Shown here: positions 2,446 to 13,036 of the stretch, piece by piece
How the letters are laid out: each line of letters opens with the position of its first letter
Position numbering within the stretch: position 1 is the stretch's first letter
Origin: a virus
DNA: 21,376 nt
IMG/VR virus record: IMGVR_UViG_3300028361_000142
Coordinates: 1 to 21,376 of that record
Strand: one strand, 5' to 3'
The notes under the pieces: model-generated
Databases searched by the model: none
Told to the model about the DNA's origin: nothing
The model's input: only the letters and a program-made list of their open reading frames with translations
Made by a program: the position numbers and the translations under genes

Positions 2446-4269
2446 ATGGCTAAAAAAGTAGATAAAAGTATGTTGACCAAAGCTCAATTGAGATTATCAA
2501 AGGCTAACCTTGATACTATAAATATGTATAGATCCAACCCTTGTGTTGCCTGTAGAGATTTGCTTGGAATACAATTATTAGATTACCAAGCAGTTATATT
2601 ACAACAATCTTGGATAGCTGAGAACGTTGTTTGGCTATTGACAAGAAACGGCGGGAAAACTGTATTGGCTGCAATATATATGATGTTGGATCAATTGCTT
2701 TTCCCAGAGAGAGAATTATGGATATTAGGAACAAACGGAAAACAGTCTAAGAAATTATATTCTTATGTTGAAAGACTTGGCACTAATACAATAAAGTCAT
2801 TTGGTGATTTACCAGATATATACTTTAAAGAAATAAAAAGGACAAATAGTGTAGGAAGTGGATTTGGTCATGATGCTTCTGGACACAGGGTTAAGTTAAT
2901 GAATGAGAGTTATATAAAAACATTAAATGATAACCCAGATGGCAACAGGGGTGAAAGGGGATCGACGTTTTTTGATGAGGCTTCATTTATTCCTGAGAAA
3001 AGTATAGTTGCAGTAGAGCCATATTCTGCTCAAGACACAAGCTTTCAAAGTTCAATAGACCCCGACTTCGACCAAAGAGCATTAACAAAGAAAAGACCAT
3101 TGCAAAGAATATATTTCTCATCTGCTGGTGATAAGACTTGTTATTTTTATCAGAAGTATGTAGAGTTTAGCAAGAGAATGATTGCTGGAGATACTAGGTA
3201 TTTTGTTGCAGACATAACGATAGACATACCACTTGAGCCTACAATTAGAGGTAAAAAATGTGGTGCATTATTAAGTAAGTCTGTATTATCACAAGCACTT
3301 GCAACGAATCCTACAAAAGCAATGCGTGAGTTTTATAACAAATGGGATGTAGATGGTGGAGATGATCAGATAATAAAATCTTCAACAATGAATAATAACT
3401 CAACATTCCAATTACCAGAAATGATTCCTGATTTTACAGAAGGTGAAAAGGTAAAATATGGTATATTCTACGACCCAGCAGCAATTGCAGATAATGCAGT
3501 AGTTTTAATAGGGAAATTTATTTACAATAGTGATATAGGTTGGTATGGCAAAGTTGTTAATATGGTTAATTTTAAGGATTTAACTGATACAAAAGGCAAT
3601 AGACAAAAAACATATCCAGAGCAAATAGAAGAATTGAGAAGTTTAATTGTTAGATATAATGATAGTGATGTTGAATATGAAAATATCCATAAAGTCGGCA
3701 TAGACGCTGGTACTGGTGGTGGTGGTATTTTATACGGACACACTCTTATAATGGACTACCAAGACAAATACACAAAGATGAATCACAGAGGAATAACAGA
3801 TAAAGAATTATTTGCTGATAAGCAATATGAATATCCAAATGCTTATCCAATTCTAAGGATGATTGAGCCTACAAAATGGAAACCCATAATGTCTCCTAGA
3901 TTGGTGGAATTGATGAACCTTGGACTAATACATTTCCCAAAAGAATATAACAACTCTGGACACTTGGATATTGAAGCAGATAATGACGAAGGATTTGTTA
4001 GAAGAAATCTAAGTCAAGATGAACAATTGGCATTAATGAATATTGATATATGTAAAGAAGAAGCTAAAATGATTCACAGATTTAAACTTGGAAACGAAAG
4101 ATACACTTACAAGTTAAGAAGCGATATGCAAAACAATATGCATGATGATAGATTTTATACTCTCTTAATGTTTGCAGATGAATTATATACACTAAGAGAT
4201 AATGATGCTATGAATAAAGGAAGAAGCAAGAAAACAAAAGATAGAACAATATTATCTTTGTTTAACTAA
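2446..4269 (+). CDS. terL: Terminase large subunit (packaging ATPase and nuclease)
   Basis: A 607-residue motor protein that drives phage DNA into the prohead and cuts it. Visible motifs: a Walker A-type loop TRNGGKT (66-72; R67, K71, T72), Walker B with catalytic Glu STFFDEAS (D177, E178), and a coupling motif FSSAG (224-228). The C-terminal RNase H-like nuclease has acidic residues in the expected order: YDP (D343), GIDAG (D420) and MHDDRF (D567/D568). Length fits the family, which is usually 450-650 residues. Start: AGGAG at 2431-2435 precedes ATG 2446 by 10 bases. Another ATG at 2442, better spaced, reads only MDG and stops, so it is not the gene start. The walker loop has Asn-Gly-Gly where many terminases have a Gly-x-Gly or Gly-Gly-x pattern, which is tolerated in the family. 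It would act with the portal encoded 27 bases downstream. Confidence 0.95.
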   Translation: MAKKVDKSMLTKAQLRLSKANLDTINMYRSNPCVACRDLLGIQLLDYQAVILQQSWIAENVVWLLTRNGGKTVLAAIYMMLDQLLFPERELWILGTNGKQSKKLYSYVERLGTNTIKSFGDLPDIYFKEIKRTNSVGSGFGHDASGHRVKLMNESYIKTLNDNPDGNRGERGSTFFDEASFIPEKSIVAVEPYSAQDTSFQSSIDPDFDQRALTKKRPLQRIYFSSAGDKTCYFYQKYVEFSKRMIAGDTRYFVADITIDIPLEPTIRGKKCGALLSKSVLSQALATNPTKAMREFYNKWDVDGGDDQIIKSSTMNNNSTFQLPEMIPDFTEGEKVKYGIFYDPAAIADNAVVLIGKFIYNSDIGWYGKVVNMVNFKDLTDTKGNRQKTYPEQIEELRSLIVRYNDSDVEYENIHKVGIDAGTGGGGILYGHTLIMDYQDKYTKMNHRGITDKELFADKQYEYPNAYPILRMIEPTKWKPIMSPRLVELMNLGLIHFPKEYNNSGHLDIEADNDEGFVRRNLSQDEQLALMNIDICKEEAKMIHRFKLGNERYTYKLRSDMQNNMHDDRFYTLLMFADELYTLRDNDAMNKGRSKKTKDRTILSLFN

Positions 4270-4296: not shown

Positions 4297-5958
4297 ATGA
4301 GTAATGCTCAAAACAAAGGCGAATTATTACTTTCAGACTTGTATATGGATTATAAAAAATCAGATATTGCAAATGGATTAACTGAAGAAGAAATAAGAAA
4401 AAATGTAACAGACATTTACACGAAAGTTAATAAAAGTTTTGAATCAAGTTTTAAAGATATTGGGAATAATAGATCAAGATTTTCAGTAAATGATTTTCTA
4501 GACGGAGTAATTGGCAAAATGAGACATTCCATGAATACCCCAAGGAAATATACGGCAGAGTCGATTAATAAAATAATGGAGTTTCCTTATAATTATAAAG
4601 ATGATTTAATAAGAATGTCTACATACTTTTATTTAAGATCTCAAGAGTATAAAGGTATAATAAGCTACAAATCTGATATGCTGACTTATTCAAATGTTAT
4701 GTACCCTGTGGGGAGCGTTGATGATAATTTTGATGTAGATGATTACATGAGAAAACTAGAATTTGTAAAAGATTATCATATACAATCAAAGTTTAGTCAA
4801 GCGACAAAATCTTTAGTAAAGACAGATTTATACTTTGCTTATGAATTAAGCGACAATGGTGGTAAAAACTATATATGGAAAAAACTACCAGTTGAGTTTT
4901 GCACAATATTAGGCAAGGATAGATTTGAGACTTATAGAGTTGGATTCGATATGTCATATTTTGACAAATATCCTAGTGATTTAAATTCATATCCAAAAGA
5001 GTTTAAAGACAAATATGAATTATATAAATTGAGGAAAGATAGTTTTGCAGATAAATATAAATCACAATCTTCAAAGAACAGAAGCAGAAATATAAATGCT
5101 GATTACGAAATGCAAACAGTTTATGAGCTTGATAATTCAAAAGCAATAGCATTTAAGTTTGATGAGTCTGTTGATTATGTAGTTCCTTATTATAGTGGAA
5201 TGTTTGTTGATTTAGTAAGATTGTCTGAGTTAAAAGATGTAGATGTAATAAATACAGTATCTGATAATTATAAATTGATACATCAACAAGTTCCTATGAA
5301 TAAAGAATCAGGGCAAGAAGACGACTATTTAATTAGTGGAGATTTTTTATCTAAATTTCATGATAGCTTGGTAAAAAATGCCCCCGCTGGAGTTGGAGTA
5401 GCAACTACGCCAATGCCACTAACGGCAGTTACATTAAAAAATGGTATTGGCTCGGCAGAAGAAAGTATTACAAGTAAGCAAGTTAGTAATATACTTACGC
5501 AGTCTGGAACTTCAAATTTATTATTCAATGGAAGTTCAACAAGTGCATTAGGTTTAAATAAAAATATACAAGTTGATGAAAATATGATGTTTGGTGTCTT
5601 AAAACAATACCAATTATTTATGAGAAAAAGATTATACCAATTATGTAAAAATTCGTATAAATATGAATTAAGATTTTTAGAAAATTCTCATTTTAATACT
5701 GAAGATTTAATTGATAGATATATGAAAACTGGATCTGCTGGTTTCAACACCGAGTTTGAAGTAAACGCATTACTAGGAAGAGATCAAATTGATTTTATAA
5801 ATTCTGGAAAGATATTGGATAAATTAAATATGAGAGACTCTATGATACCTTTTAAATCTTCTCATGTTGGTGATGCTACATCTGTGGAAACTGGTGGTAA
5901 AGTAAAAACTTCTGACTTAACTGATGACGGAGCTGAATCTAGAGAAAGAGATTTGTAG
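4297..5958 (+). CDS. Portal protein
   Basis: A 553-residue protein placed between the large terminase and the capsid protease, the standard place for the portal. A strong site (GAAAGGGGG) precedes ATG 4297. The N-terminal 100 residues are helical. The stretch around residues 105-136 (YFYLRSQEYKGI followed by YKSDML) resembles the start of the portal core in Firmicute phages. The middle is alpha/beta, residues about 350-440 are rich in Gly/Ser/Ala and would contain the stem and tunnel-loop region, and the C-terminus is polar. The portal forms a dodecameric ring at one capsid vertex, docks the terminase, and later joins the neck. No single catalytic motif exists for this family, so the call rests on length, position and overall pattern. 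The stop is followed 9 bases later by the protease start. Confidence 0.88.
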   Translation: MSNAQNKGELLLSDLYMDYKKSDIANGLTEEEIRKNVTDIYTKVNKSFESSFKDIGNNRSRFSVNDFLDGVIGKMRHSMNTPRKYTAESINKIMEFPYNYKDDLIRMSTYFYLRSQEYKGIISYKSDMLTYSNVMYPVGSVDDNFDVDDYMRKLEFVKDYHIQSKFSQATKSLVKTDLYFAYELSDNGGKNYIWKKLPVEFCTILGKDRFETYRVGFDMSYFDKYPSDLNSYPKEFKDKYELYKLRKDSFADKYKSQSSKNRSRNINADYEMQTVYELDNSKAIAFKFDESVDYVVPYYSGMFVDLVRLSELKDVDVINTVSDNYKLIHQQVPMNKESGQEDDYLISGDFLSKFHDSLVKNAPAGVGVATTPMPLTAVTLKNGIGSAEESITSKQVSNILTQSGTSNLLFNGSSTSALGLNKNIQVDENMMFGVLKQYQLFMRKRLYQLCKNSYKYELRFLENSHFNTEDLIDRYMKTGSAGFNTEFEVNALLGRDQIDFINSGKILDKLNMRDSMIPFKSSHVGDATSVETGGKVKTSDLTDDGAESRERDL

Positions 5959-5967
5959 AGGTGAAAT

Positions 5968-7536
5968 ATGAGTAATAAAATAGAAAAAAATATTTATACA
6001 CATTTAGATAATCTAACTTTTGAAGTTGGTGAAACTGTAATTGGTGAAGAAAATAATAGATACACAAAAGTAAAAGCTTGGATAGCACATGTTGATAAAA
6101 ACTTAAATAAATCTAATTTTTCAAAAGAGATGTTGCAAGCTATGATTCCAAGTTTAACTTATGCTCCAATCGTAGGATATATTCAAGTTGGAGATGATAA
6201 TGTTCCTGATTTTGCTGGTCATGAAGAAAGATATATTGTTGATAAAGATGGTGTAAAAACTGAATATCTTGGAAGAATGTATGGTTTTGTTCCAGCGGAT
6301 AATGATGCAAGATTTGAAAAGAAAACAGTGAATGGAATAGAGAGAGAGTATCTTGTTACTGATGGCATAATGATAAATAAATTTGCAAAGGCTACTGAGA
6401 TACTTGAAAGAGATGGATCAAAAGGTCAATCAATGGAATTAGACAGAAGTTCTTTTGATGGATATTATGATAAAGTAAATGATCAGTTTATGGTAACTTC
6501 TGCTGAAGTTGAAGCATTGTGTTTACTTGGGGATTCTAGAATTCCAGCTATGTCTGGTGGTTCAATTGAGAAAACCCAATTTACAAATATAAGAACAGAG
6601 CTATCATCAGTATTTGAAAAGATGGAAAAGGATTATATGACCAAGTATAGTGCTTTAAAAACAAACGAGGAAAATAAGAAAGGAGGAAATGAGTTGGATA
6701 TTAAAACTTTAGAGAAAATGTTAGTTAATTACACGCTTATTTCTAACGAGTTTGTTGAGGATTTAAAAGGCAAACTTGAAACATTTGAAACAGAAGAAAA
6801 TCTAAAAGAGGTTTTAGATGCAGAACAATCTACCCAATTTGAATTGACTGCTTCAGCACAAATGGAAATTCTTAATAGAGAAGTTTCTAATTTAGAAGTT
6901 TTTATTGACAGATGGGGAGATAAAATTAGTAAGTACGGATTTAAAGATGTGAATATTGAATCAAGTGAAGTTTATGCAATTGACAGATCAGATTATTCAG
7001 ACGTTGGTTTCGAGTTTATTAAAAATGGAGATTCTTATGAGATTGATAAAGATTCTAAATTTAACATATCTTGGCAACCAGTTAGATTAGAAGAAGGTCA
7101 AGCTACTAATTTTAGTTTAAAAGAAGAGATTGATTTACTTTATGAAGTTGCCGATTCTAAAATTGAGGCTTCTAAAGAAGATACGAAAACTGAATTTGAA
7201 TCTAAATTAGAGACGCAAAAAGTTGAATTTGAAAAATTAGTTTCTGAAAAAGATGTTGAACTTTCTGATCTTCGTGATTACAAATTTTCAATTGAATCTG
7301 ATTTAAAAACTAGTTTTGTTTCTAGTATTGAAAATCTAGAAGAAGTAGAAAAAGAAGATTTAATTGGTAGAGTTTCAGACTTTACAATGGAAACATTGAA
7401 AGATGAGATTTTTAAAATGATAGGTAAAAAGTCAACTAAATTTTCAGTAGAAAAAATTGAAGATATTAAAGATGATTTTAAGTCACATGAAAATGATGTA
7501 GAGAAAAAATCTTACGATCACTTAATGGTTAAATAA
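5968..7536 (+). CDS. Prohead protease with C-terminal scaffold domain
   Basis: A 522-residue protein between portal and capsid genes. GAGGTGA lies just before ATG 5968. Residues 1-200 look like a phage prohead protease of the HK97/herpesvirus assemblin fold: the conserved-looking block KAWIAH (36-41), PSLTYAPIVGY (61-71), FAGHE with candidate catalytic His85, and GQSMEL with candidate nucleophile Ser155. Residues from about 243 to 522 are acidic and mostly coiled-coil (385-450 strongest), interrupted by a small beta-like stretch at about 335-372, and end in a Lys-rich tail. This matches a scaffold that fills the prohead and is then degraded. The major capsid protein downstream has no long N-terminal delta domain, so scaffolding in trans by this part is expected. 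An internal start giving the scaffold alone is listed separately. The protease family call is good; the exact catalytic residues are inferred. Confidence 0.85.
   Translation: MSNKIEKNIYTHLDNLTFEVGETVIGEENNRYTKVKAWIAHVDKNLNKSNFSKEMLQAMIPSLTYAPIVGYIQVGDDNVPDFAGHEERYIVDKDGVKTEYLGRMYGFVPADNDARFEKKTVNGIEREYLVTDGIMINKFAKATEILERDGSKGQSMELDRSSFDGYYDKVNDQFMVTSAEVEALCLLGDSRIPAMSGGSIEKTQFTNIRTELSSVFEKMEKDYMTKYSALKTNEENKKGGNELDIKTLEKMLVNYTLISNEFVEDLKGKLETFETEENLKEVLDAEQSTQFELTASAQMEILNREVSNLEVFIDRWGDKISKYGFKDVNIESSEVYAIDRSDYSDVGFEFIKNGDSYEIDKDSKFNISWQPVRLEEGQATNFSLKEEIDLLYEVADSKIEASKEDTKTEFESKLETQKVEFEKLVSEKDVELSDLRDYKFSIESDLKTSFVSSIENLEEVEKEDLIGRVSDFTMETLKDEIFKMIGKKSTKFSVEKIEDIKDDFKSHENDVEKKSYDHLMVK
6681..6696 (+). 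promoter_or_regulatory. Internal Shine-Dalgarno and TTG start for scaffold
   Basis: A perfect AGGAGG at 6681-6686 lies inside the protease gene, 7 bases before an in-frame TTG (6694-6696, codon 243). The adjacent ATG at 6689 is out of frame and reads only 7 codons before a stop. The site sits exactly at the junction between the protease domain and the scaffold domain. Confidence 0.6.
6694..7536 (+). CDS. Nested scaffold protein, same frame as protease C-terminus
   Basis: Translation from TTG 6694 would give a 280-residue protein identical to the C-terminal part of the protease-scaffold fusion. It is acidic and coiled-coil-rich, with no protease motifs, which is what a free scaffold looks like. 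Nested, same-frame scaffold genes are known in lambda (Nu3 inside C) and other phages; they supply scaffold in excess of protease. Here the evidence is the exact AGGAGG, the 7-base spacing, the in-frame TTG (TTG is also the likely start of the last gene of this window), and the placement at the domain boundary. It is not proven that the site is used; a GGN pair in the linker could produce AGGAGG by chance. Confidence 0.55.
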   Translation: MDIKTLEKMLVNYTLISNEFVEDLKGKLETFETEENLKEVLDAEQSTQFELTASAQMEILNREVSNLEVFIDRWGDKISKYGFKDVNIESSEVYAIDRSDYSDVGFEFIKNGDSYEIDKDSKFNISWQPVRLEEGQATNFSLKEEIDLLYEVADSKIEASKEDTKTEFESKLETQKVEFEKLVSEKDVELSDLRDYKFSIESDLKTSFVSSIENLEEVEKEDLIGRVSDFTMETLKDEIFKMIGKKSTKFSVEKIEDIKDDFKSHENDVEKKSYDHLMVK

Positions 7537-7584
7537 GCCATTACAAATAATAAAGTAATTTAAAATTACAGGAGGAAATATATT

Positions 7585-8061
7585 ATGATGAATTTGGAAA
7601 AATGTCAAGCAATTTACAACGGTAATATCGAAAACGTACAACACACATCAGCAATGAAGAATGGTTCTTTTATCAATCTTGGTGCTAAAATTAAAGACGA
7701 TGTTTACGCAGTTGGAGTTCCAGCTACAGCAACATTAGGAACTGCTGAAGTTTTAGTAGTATTCTCTGATGAAACATCTTATGAGTCTGGAAAGTCTATT
7801 AGTGATTTTACAAACAAAGCAAATGTTCCAGCAAGAGCTTATCACTTAACTGAAGGTGATTCATGGTTAATTGCAAATGAAGATTTCACAGGAACAGCAG
7901 CAGTTGGCAAATATTTAATTCCAGCAAATGGAACTGTAGTGCCAGCGGCTTCAGCAACAGCTACAGGAAAAGGCTTACAAATTGTTGTTGATCAAATTGA
8001 TCAAACTATTGGATATGCTAAGAAAGCAGCAACTAGAGTAAAGGTTGCTAACGTATTATAG
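7585..8061 (+). CDS. Probable capsid decoration protein
   Basis: A 158-residue protein between protease/scaffold and major capsid genes, the usual place for a decoration or head-stabilising protein. AGGAGG at 7570-7575 is 9 bases before ATG 7585; a second ATG follows at once. The sequence is rich in Ala, Val, Thr and Gly with alternating hydrophobic residues, predicting beta structure (for example TLGTAEVLVVFSD, GKYLIPANGTVVPAA). It has no signal peptide, membrane segment or enzyme motif. Such proteins bind the outside of the expanded capsid shell and are needed in hundreds of copies; the strong ribosome site fits high expression. Role inferred from position and composition; no family motif is recognised. 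Confidence 0.55.
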   Translation: MMNLEKCQAIYNGNIENVQHTSAMKNGSFINLGAKIKDDVYAVGVPATATLGTAEVLVVFSDETSYESGKSISDFTNKANVPARAYHLTEGDSWLIANEDFTGTAAVGKYLIPANGTVVPAASATATGKGLQIVVDQIDQTIGYAKKAATRVKVANVL

Positions 8062-8119
8062 TAACTAATCTATAGAAATGTTGGTAAACTAAACTTATAA
8101 ATTACGGAGGAAAAAGAAT

Positions 8120-9130
8120 ATGAATGAAAATATGAAAGTAATTAGAGATTTAATGGTAGATATTGATTCTGCTAGTAAAGGTATGTCTACAAAGTTTTCT
8201 CAAGATGCTCTAGAGGCAACTTTAAGAGCTGAGATTGTAAAAGTATTTGGTAAAGAAAACCCAAGCCTTATTGAAGTTAAAAGAAATCCAAACTCAGGTG
8301 CATTTTTTGAAGTAATGGAAGAATTTATTGGTAATGCTGGTACTGCTGCATTACAATTAGCTATTCCGTTTGCAGAATTTAAAAGCATTGGTTGGGGAGA
8401 TGAGAACAGATTTGAAATCGAGAACGCAGATCTATTTGACGTTATCACATTAGCAAAAGGAAACGCTAATATTAGAAGACAAAGATTAGAGAATGGTTAC
8501 ATGTCTATTCCTACTGAAGCAAAAGGTATTAAGATCTTTGAAAACTTTAAGAGATTTTTATCTGGTAGAGTAAATTGGGTTGCTATGGTACAGAAAGTTA
8601 CTGCATCATACGTTAAGCATGTGCAAGAATTAGTTTACACTGCATTTTATGCTTCTACACCAGTTAACTCTAACGCAAAGTTCAATGTAAATGAAGCTGG
8701 TGCATTAGATAAAGATAACGTTTATGAAATGGTTGAACATGTACAAGCAGAAAACCAAAACTCAGACGTTATCATTATGGGTACTAGATTGGCTTTAAAA
8801 GCTTTAACTCCTGTTATTGTTACAGAAGAAGCTAATAAGCAAATGCACGAACTAGGCTACTACAAAACTGCTGAAGGTTATTCTTTAGTTGTGGTTGATC
8901 AAATGCACGTAGCAAATACTTATGAGTTTTTATTGTCTAATAAGCAATTCATGGTTATTCCAGCAGACTTAGGTGGATTAGTTAAGATTATGGAAGAAGG
9001 AACTCCATTAATCATTGACACTCCAATTGGTAAAAATGCTGACATGTCTGTAGAGCATATGTTCTATAGAGAAGTTGGAGTTGGTATTGTTACTGGTAGA
9101 GCTTATGGTAAATACACTTGGACTAACTAA
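8120..9130 (+). CDS. Major capsid protein (HK97 fold)
   Basis: A 336-residue protein that would form the icosahedral shell. CGGAGG stands 9 bases before ATG 8120. Length, position after protease and decoration genes, and pattern fit a HK97-fold capsid protein: a helical N-arm (1-45), a beta hairpin-like region (65-110), a long helix of the peripheral domain around 155-185, and an axial domain near the C-terminus with the block TPIGKNADMSVEHMFYREVG and the closing GRAYGKYTW. The N-terminal part before the shell domain is short, so it has at most a small delta domain. That fits a separate scaffold supplied by the gene two places upstream. A strong hairpin directly after the gene suggests that its transcript is made in excess. 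Confidence 0.88.
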   Translation: MNENMKVIRDLMVDIDSASKGMSTKFSQDALEATLRAEIVKVFGKENPSLIEVKRNPNSGAFFEVMEEFIGNAGTAALQLAIPFAEFKSIGWGDENRFEIENADLFDVITLAKGNANIRRQRLENGYMSIPTEAKGIKIFENFKRFLSGRVNWVAMVQKVTASYVKHVQELVYTAFYASTPVNSNAKFNVNEAGALDKDNVYEMVEHVQAENQNSDVIIMGTRLALKALTPVIVTEEANKQMHELGYYKTAEGYSLVVVDQMHVANTYEFLLSNKQFMVIPADLGGLVKIMEEGTPLIIDTPIGKNADMSVEHMFYREVGVGIVTGRAYGKYTWTN

Positions 9131-12187: not shown

Positions 12188-13036
12188 ATGGGTATTAAAA
12201 AAACTATTGATAAAAACGATAAAAAATATGTGCCTATAGAATATGTCGAATCTTGGATAATTGGATTTCCTATTAAGACTGAATATGGAGATATTATCCA
12301 GTTTAAGGTTGAAGATTATTATGATATTATAGGTGAATTAGAATTATTAAAAAAACAAGGTTGGGAAATAAAAAATCAGATACTAAAAAGTGTTGAGACT
12401 AAAGAGATTAGAGATAAAATTAAAAGTGATTTTGACAATAATAGTTTTATAACATGTGTTAGAAATAATGTGTGTGGTTTAAGAAATGAGTATATAAGAA
12501 TATTCAGTATGTTCATTGATGATTTTGAAAAGAAATTTATTTGGACAATATCACAAGAAGAATTTGATAGAATTAGAAAACTAATATTAGAACTGAACAA
12601 TATAACACACCAAGAGAAAAATCCCAACGAAGAAATTGAAAGATTTAACAAAATGAAGAATTTTATGAATAGAGCTAAAGGTGGAGTGTTAGAATTCGAT
12701 ACAATTTATTCCACGCTTATGACAAAAGAAGGTGGTGGATTATTGCCATCTGAAATAAATAGTCTCACAATGAGACAGTTTTATTTAGCTTTTAAAAGGG
12801 TTGAATTTAACAAAGCTCATGATGTAACTACACTTTTTAAAACAGTGGACTCTAAAGATACTATTAAAATAGTTGATTGGAATCAATCGTCAAGAGAAGA
12901 AGAACAAGTTATTGAATTTGATAGTTTAGATGATCTTAAAAAGAACAATGGATTTATGGCTAAAAAGGGAGTTTCTAAAAAGAGTGGCAACCCTAATGCT
13001 ATGACGCCTAAATCTAATAGTTTACCTAAGCTATAA
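12188..13036 (+). CDS. Unknown tail-region protein, candidate tail assembly chaperone
   Basis: A 282-residue protein just before the major tail protein. A moderate site, GGGGA (12176-12180), precedes ATG 12188. It begins with a basic segment, then an alpha/beta N-terminal part (about 15-60), a long charged helical middle, and a helical C-terminal part with PSEINSLTMRQFYLAFKR-type sequence, which recalls the C-terminal helices of phage tail chaperones (Gp15/TAC-like). The last 35 residues are basic and unstructured (KKGVSKKSGNPNAMTPKSN). Tail chaperones normally lie after the tail tube gene, so the placement is unusual. I checked for a frameshift product near the 3' end: the -1 frame stops immediately and the +1 frame after about 13 codons. 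Function uncertain. Confidence 0.65.
   Translation: MGIKKTIDKNDKKYVPIEYVESWIIGFPIKTEYGDIIQFKVEDYYDIIGELELLKKQGWEIKNQILKSVETKEIRDKIKSDFDNNSFITCVRNNVCGLRNEYIRIFSMFIDDFEKKFIWTISQEEFDRIRKLILELNNITHQEKNPNEEIERFNKMKNFMNRAKGGVLEFDTIYSTLMTKEGGGLLPSEINSLTMRQFYLAFKRVEFNKAHDVTTLFKTVDSKDTIKIVDWNQSSREEEQVIEFDSLDDLKKNNGFMAKKGVSKKSGNPNAMTPKSNSLPKL

Follow-up and report, generated by a model that had tools for sequence, protein, structure and literature searches.

How can a phage gene that fuses a protease to a scaffold also supply the scaffold as a protein of its own? This question is raised by the open reading frame (ORF) at positions 5968-7536 of a 21,376-nucleotide stretch of viral DNA, positions 1 to 21,376 of IMG/VR record IMGVR_UViG_3300028361_000142, which we refer to as the window. 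Very probably, this ORF encodes a fusion of a prohead protease with a coiled-coil scaffold, and an internal ribosome-binding site starts a separate, co-terminal scaffold of 280 residues, a reading that we draw from comparison of homologous genes and from structure prediction. The site consists of AGGAGG at 6681-6686, a 7-nucleotide spacer (AAATGAG), and TTG at 6694-6696 on the plus strand (aagaaAGGAGGaaatgagTTGgat; AAGAAAGGAGGAAATGAGTTGGAT). The TTG is codon 243 of the 522-codon ORF, which begins with ATG at 5968, and the frame of the two is identical. The nested product would be 280 residues long and would share the stop codon of the ORF at 7534-7536. An earlier interpretation of the same DNA, made without any homologue (the sequence-only reading), had pointed to this arrangement inside the protease gene, and its positions are confirmed here.

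The strength of each Shine-Dalgarno (SD) sequence was scored as the energy of a simple anti-SD duplex. The duplex at the nested TTG is -16.3 kcal/mol, compared with -9.1 kcal/mol for the ORF's own start, and when the codons of the window gene alone were shuffled synonymously, p was 0.015. A search of the 18 main ORFs of the window for internal in-frame NTG codons with a duplex of -9 kcal/mol or below gives only two, of which TTG 6694 is the stronger. The other is TTG 12743 behind an SD-like sequence (-12.9 kcal/mol), in frame inside ORF 12188-13036; this site looks like a chance occurrence. The sequence-only reading had also taken a nearby out-of-frame ATG, at 6689, as support for the use of TTG, since its frame meets TAG after 7 codons. 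This argument does not hold, because only 2 nucleotides separate the ATG from AGGAGG and an ATG of this kind is missing from most homologues. A search of positions 5500-8300 against Rfam did not find an RNA element.

The nested start lies at a predicted domain border. In an AlphaFold model of the full-length protein, built with 30 homologues, codon 243 is located in a disordered linker (residues 230-243) that separates a confidently modelled protease domain from a part containing a beta domain and a coiled coil, so the border falls exactly where the sequence-only reading had placed it. The N-terminal part is a predicted prohead protease, as judged from fold matches and from residues H85, S155, and E157, which are invariant among homologues and are candidates for the catalytic residues. 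The model resembles predicted structures of phage prohead proteases (E as low as 7e-19 for a protein of that name). A PDB fold search of the fusion gave a weak match of the protease to the herpesvirus assemblin pUL26N, and no match at E <= 0.001. The window protease has no match in Pfam, including the profile of HK97-type (S78/U35) prohead proteases, and no S49 match was obtained for the window protein or any of the 30 homologues. Nor are the best fold matches, in the PDB or among viral proteins, reported as S49. The nested part is a predicted charged coiled-coil scaffold, based on its modelled helix, its Asp and Glu content (25% together), and the match of one homologue to the head scaffolding protein phrog_2932 (E 2e-6). 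The family pattern [YF]xx[LIF][FLMIV] at its C-terminus may serve as a capsid-binding tail. The window protein and 30 of 30 homologues match PHROG_3313, a family listed with unknown function in PHROGs.

Homologues were sought with tblastn, which found the gene in 56 phage records; large Firmicute siphophages of the SPbeta, 949, Sundance, phiCD211, and EF1 types account for most of them. Because the protease sequences diverge too far for their alignment to work as a search query, an alignment of the capsid protein was used in its place; it retrieved 80 IMG/VR loci, nearly all with a protease homologue upstream. Scans with the single protein found only one near-identical fragment in viral contigs, nothing in genome contigs, and nothing in a second genome scan. 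A second IMG/VR contig (L002 in our numbering of loci), in which residues 1-323 of the protease gene product are 100% identical to those of the window, is probably the same virus. Together, the IMG/VR loci and phage records form 46 clusters at less than 80% identity, with a median pairwise identity of 31% in the protease domain.

An in-frame ATG, GTG, or TTG behind an SD-like sequence is present at the border between protease and scaffold in all 46 clusters, although the clusters are related by descent and conservation is not independent evidence for each. No homologue lacking both the site and the start was found. The best internal site is 22-51 codons past the protease domain in 44 clusters. 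The exceptions are L020 and L029, in which a strong SD sequence and start lie about 157 codons past the protease domain, at the beginning of the scaffold and in L020 directly at the scaffold motif. Compared with their relatives, these two genes (L020, 3491-5353; L029, 2482-4221) contain ~120-130 extra residues between the protease domain and the scaffold. A scaffold motif similar to L-x-x-LL-x-K-[FY]-S is located within a few residues of the nested start in many homologues. A gut phage filed under the 'Caudoviricetes code 15 clade' (L015, phage Phass-1) has a nested site composed of AGGAGGT and ATG.

The internal site occurs more often than expected by chance. Within a range of positions fixed beforehand, 43 of 46 genes have a site at or below -11 kcal/mol; when synonymous codons were shuffled 200 times, the number of genes with such a site averaged 7.8 and never exceeded 14. 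The background rate, taken from 367 other ORFs of these loci, is 0.09 per 1000 codons. The details of the site are variable. The nested start codon is ATG in 20 clusters, TTG in 14, and GTG in 12, and on a tree of the protease domain there are at least 19 changes of start codon and at least 10 changes of the codon phase of the SD sequence. All three phases are used (27, 15, and 4 genes), and the residues of the linker differ. Since the start codon and the SD phase turn over while the site persists, selection acts on the initiation site and not on the amino acids. Together, conservation among homologues and the predicted domain border argue for a separate scaffold nested in the protease gene, of the lambda C/Nu3 type, as the sequence-only reading had proposed.

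Several observations weigh against internal initiation and should be considered. We found no protein or ribosome-profiling evidence of a separate product for any of these phages. The starts in L020 and L029 were picked outside the fixed range after the sequence had been seen, the SD site is weaker or less typical in L013, L024, and L071, and L009, L013, and L072 are not significant individually. The nested SD sequence is stronger than that of the main start in 14 of 45 genes and weaker in 31 of 45, where the main starts are the best candidates and thus a favourable choice; a consistently stronger nested SD was therefore rejected. The mRNA near the nested start has a folding energy of -1.6 kcal/mol versus a mean of -8.7 kcal/mol elsewhere in the gene, and it is less folded in 40 of 46 genes. 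Selection for low mRNA structure at the start is unsupported, as the difference is explained by base composition (z of 0.06 against synonymous shuffles). A/G-rich linkers also raise the level expected by chance, such that the shuffles mentioned above still give a strong site in some genes. This last point, together with the individually non-significant genes, fits the view that only the full-length protein is made and that the SD-like string only reflects a conserved linker peptide (Lys-Gly-Gly or Lys-Glu-Glu) or chance in an A/G-rich gene. We consider this very unlikely, because the linker peptide varies, the SD sequence occurs in every codon phase, the start codons switch freely and yet a start is always there, and the real genes far exceed the shuffle maximum.

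In principle, ribosomes can be slowed by SD-like sequences within a gene, plausibly at domain borders. AGGAGG might thus be a pause site or a frameshift-stimulating site between the domains instead of a start site. A pause would not need a start codon, yet 35 of 37 border copies of AGGAGG are followed by an in-frame start 4-12 nucleotides on, whereas ~11% would be expected for three codons given that NTG makes up 3.6% of all codons. None of the out-of-frame starts near the SD sequence opens a frame longer than 23 codons, so a change of frame would yield a tiny peptide, which counts against frameshifting. We give next to no probability to this explanation. It is also extremely improbable that free scaffold arises solely from self-cleavage of the fusion near the border, with no internal initiation. 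There is a precedent in herpesvirus pUL26, where cleavage takes place at a release site close to the point at which UL26.5 begins (PMC4498786), and the low-confidence linker in the model of the window protein lies at the border. Cleavage alone, by contrast, would not select an SD sequence and a start codon throughout the family. Self-cleavage may take place in addition to internal initiation.

If internal initiation is used, the gene would give two products, the full-length protease-scaffold and free scaffold from the internal ribosome site. By analogy with herpesvirus (PMC4498786) and lambda (PMC3224144), free scaffold would be in excess and line the growing prohead, and the fusion would co-assemble through its identical scaffold part and carry the protease into the prohead. 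Upon completion of the prohead, the protease would release itself and degrade the scaffold ahead of DNA packaging. The sequence-only reading had proposed that the nested start explains how a fused gene makes enough scaffold. This is consistent with the window gene, whose nested SD outscores that of the main start, but averaged over the family the nested SD has no such advantage, so that an excess of scaffold is a conjecture. The same reading supposed a capsid protein lacking a long delta domain, with which the length of the major capsid protein, 336 residues, is compatible. Non-ATG codons are found in 26 of 46 nested starts and in 23 of 45 main-start candidates with the best SD, and they may tune expression.

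The same nested site is present in yonD of SPbeta, with ATG at codon 232 and a duplex of -13.1 kcal/mol (GAGGAAGGTGAAAAAATG). The gene order in SPbeta is yonF, yonE, yonD, yonC, yonB. YonD belongs to the PHROG_3313 family, and the SPBc2 record labels it 'hypothetical protein'. According to a 2021 review, SPbeta virion assembly is almost wholly uncharacterised (PMC8270828). We found no report on YonD or on a nested scaffold in this phage group in the literature, in a search that covered few subscription papers, and the nested gene is listed in none of the annotated phage records inspected, SPBc2 included. YonD and its relatives would thereby gain a concrete role, a protease with a nested scaffold, and one unannotated gene would be added to every inspected phage of the group. 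As yonD carries the nested site, the prediction can be tested in the laboratory model SPbeta, in Bacillus subtilis 168.

A scaffold nested in a protease gene is a known design, as in lambda C/Nu3, Mu I/Z, and herpesvirus UL26/UL26.5, and the present family is a new, family-wide, and unannotated case of it. In lambda, the scaffold Nu3 is encoded within the region of the protease gene C and is read in the same frame. No sequence homology of the window scaffold to Nu3 was seen. Lambda C is listed among the S49 peptidases (PMC10695390), whereas the window protease folds like other prohead proteases and, weakly, like herpesvirus assemblin. Because it is not S49 by Pfam, it is not filed as a homologue of lambda C, though the locus would work like C/Nu3. 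An in-frame scaffold start inside the protease gene is known in Mu and inferred in PaMx73 gene 27, which has an internal GTG (Val 177) with an SD sequence and a 9-nucleotide spacer; a gpD-like gene lies between the protease-scaffold and capsid genes of PaMx73 (PMC4378225). The window resembles PaMx73 in the putative internal start with its SD sequence and in the gpD-like gene before the capsid gene. Mu and PaMx73 differ in belonging to the Mu-like phages of Gram-negative bacteria, among which internal initiation has been inferred for a small number of genomes, and no sequence match between the Mu or PaMx73 proteins and the window family was found in the searches made.

In herpesviruses, UL26 encodes a serine protease-scaffold fusion and the scaffold is also made alone from the in-frame, co-terminal gene UL26.5 (PMC4498786), an arrangement like that of the window, with the weak fold match to pUL26N described above. 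In cytomegalovirus, as far as a title cited in that paper indicates, the nested proteins are made from transcripts that are separate but co-terminal (PMC4498786), in contrast to the internal ribosome site on one mRNA predicted for the window. It is conceivable, although unlikely, that the nested protease/scaffold is ancestral to the assemblin-like proteases of the HK97/herpesvirus lineage, in which case the SPbeta-type site and UL26/UL26.5 would derive from one arrangement and would not be independent inventions. The family offers a clean example of how sequence by itself can reveal selection on a translation start within a coding region. Turnover of the start codon and SD phase around a persistent site could reveal other nested phage genes missed by gene callers.

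Table 1 Features of the protease-scaffold gene and the neighbouring head genes in the window
Feature	Positions	Strand	Basis and remarks
Terminase large subunit	2446..4269	+	phrog_2, E 1.4e-15
Portal protein	4297..5958	+	phrog_2739, E 1.6e-75
Full-length prohead protease-scaffold gene (predicted)	5968..7536	+	522 codons, ATG; PHROG_3313 over residues 25-519, E 4e-49; profile matches to 46 homologue clusters
Protease domain, residues 25-203 (predicted)	6040..6576	+	Invariant columns; predicted local distance difference test (pLDDT) >90 over most of residues 31-200; fold matches
Helix 208-231, then low-confidence linker 230-243	6589..6660	+	AlphaFold
Shine-Dalgarno AGGAGG of the putative nested gene	6681..6686	+	Duplex -16.3 kcal/mol; SD-like sequence in 46/46 homologue clusters
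Out-of-frame ATG, 7 codons then TAG	6689..6712	+	Probably irrelevant
Putative nested scaffold gene	6694..7536	+	TTG, 280 codons and stop; co-terminal with the protease gene
Small beta-rich scaffold domain, residues 290-367 (predicted)	6835..7068	+	AlphaFold; in the alignment, a similar region in some homologues, absent in others
70-residue coiled-coil scaffold helix, residues 384-453 (predicted)	7117..7326	+	AlphaFold; profile matches coiled coils among PDB sequences
C-terminal motif YDHLM	7513..7527	+	Family pattern [YF]..[LIF][FLMIV] in 33/46
Small capsid-stabilising (cement) protein, position of lambda gpD	7585..8061	+	phrog_4147; AlphaFold pLDDT 90; best PDB match is the siphovirus TW1 capsid stabilising protein
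Major capsid protein, 336 residues	8120..9130	+	phrog_4088; homologue so annotated in phage PJN02

A split of the gene into separate protease and scaffold genes was considered for some phages and found in none of the relatives inspected. L037 (3803-5396) is a decayed prophage in which the scaffold frames are broken and a deletion fuses portal and protease.

The gene downstream of the protease-scaffold gene encodes a phrog_4147 protein (unknown function in PHROGs) that resembles the cement proteins of TW1, Sf11, T1, and Pam3, and a small gene occupies this slot in the IMG/VR homologue loci. Given this resemblance, the order of the module is terminase, portal, protease/scaffold, cement, and capsid, matching that of lambda (TerL, portal, C, Nu3, D, E; PMC10695390). 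The head gene order of the window recurs in most phage records inspected and in SPbeta.
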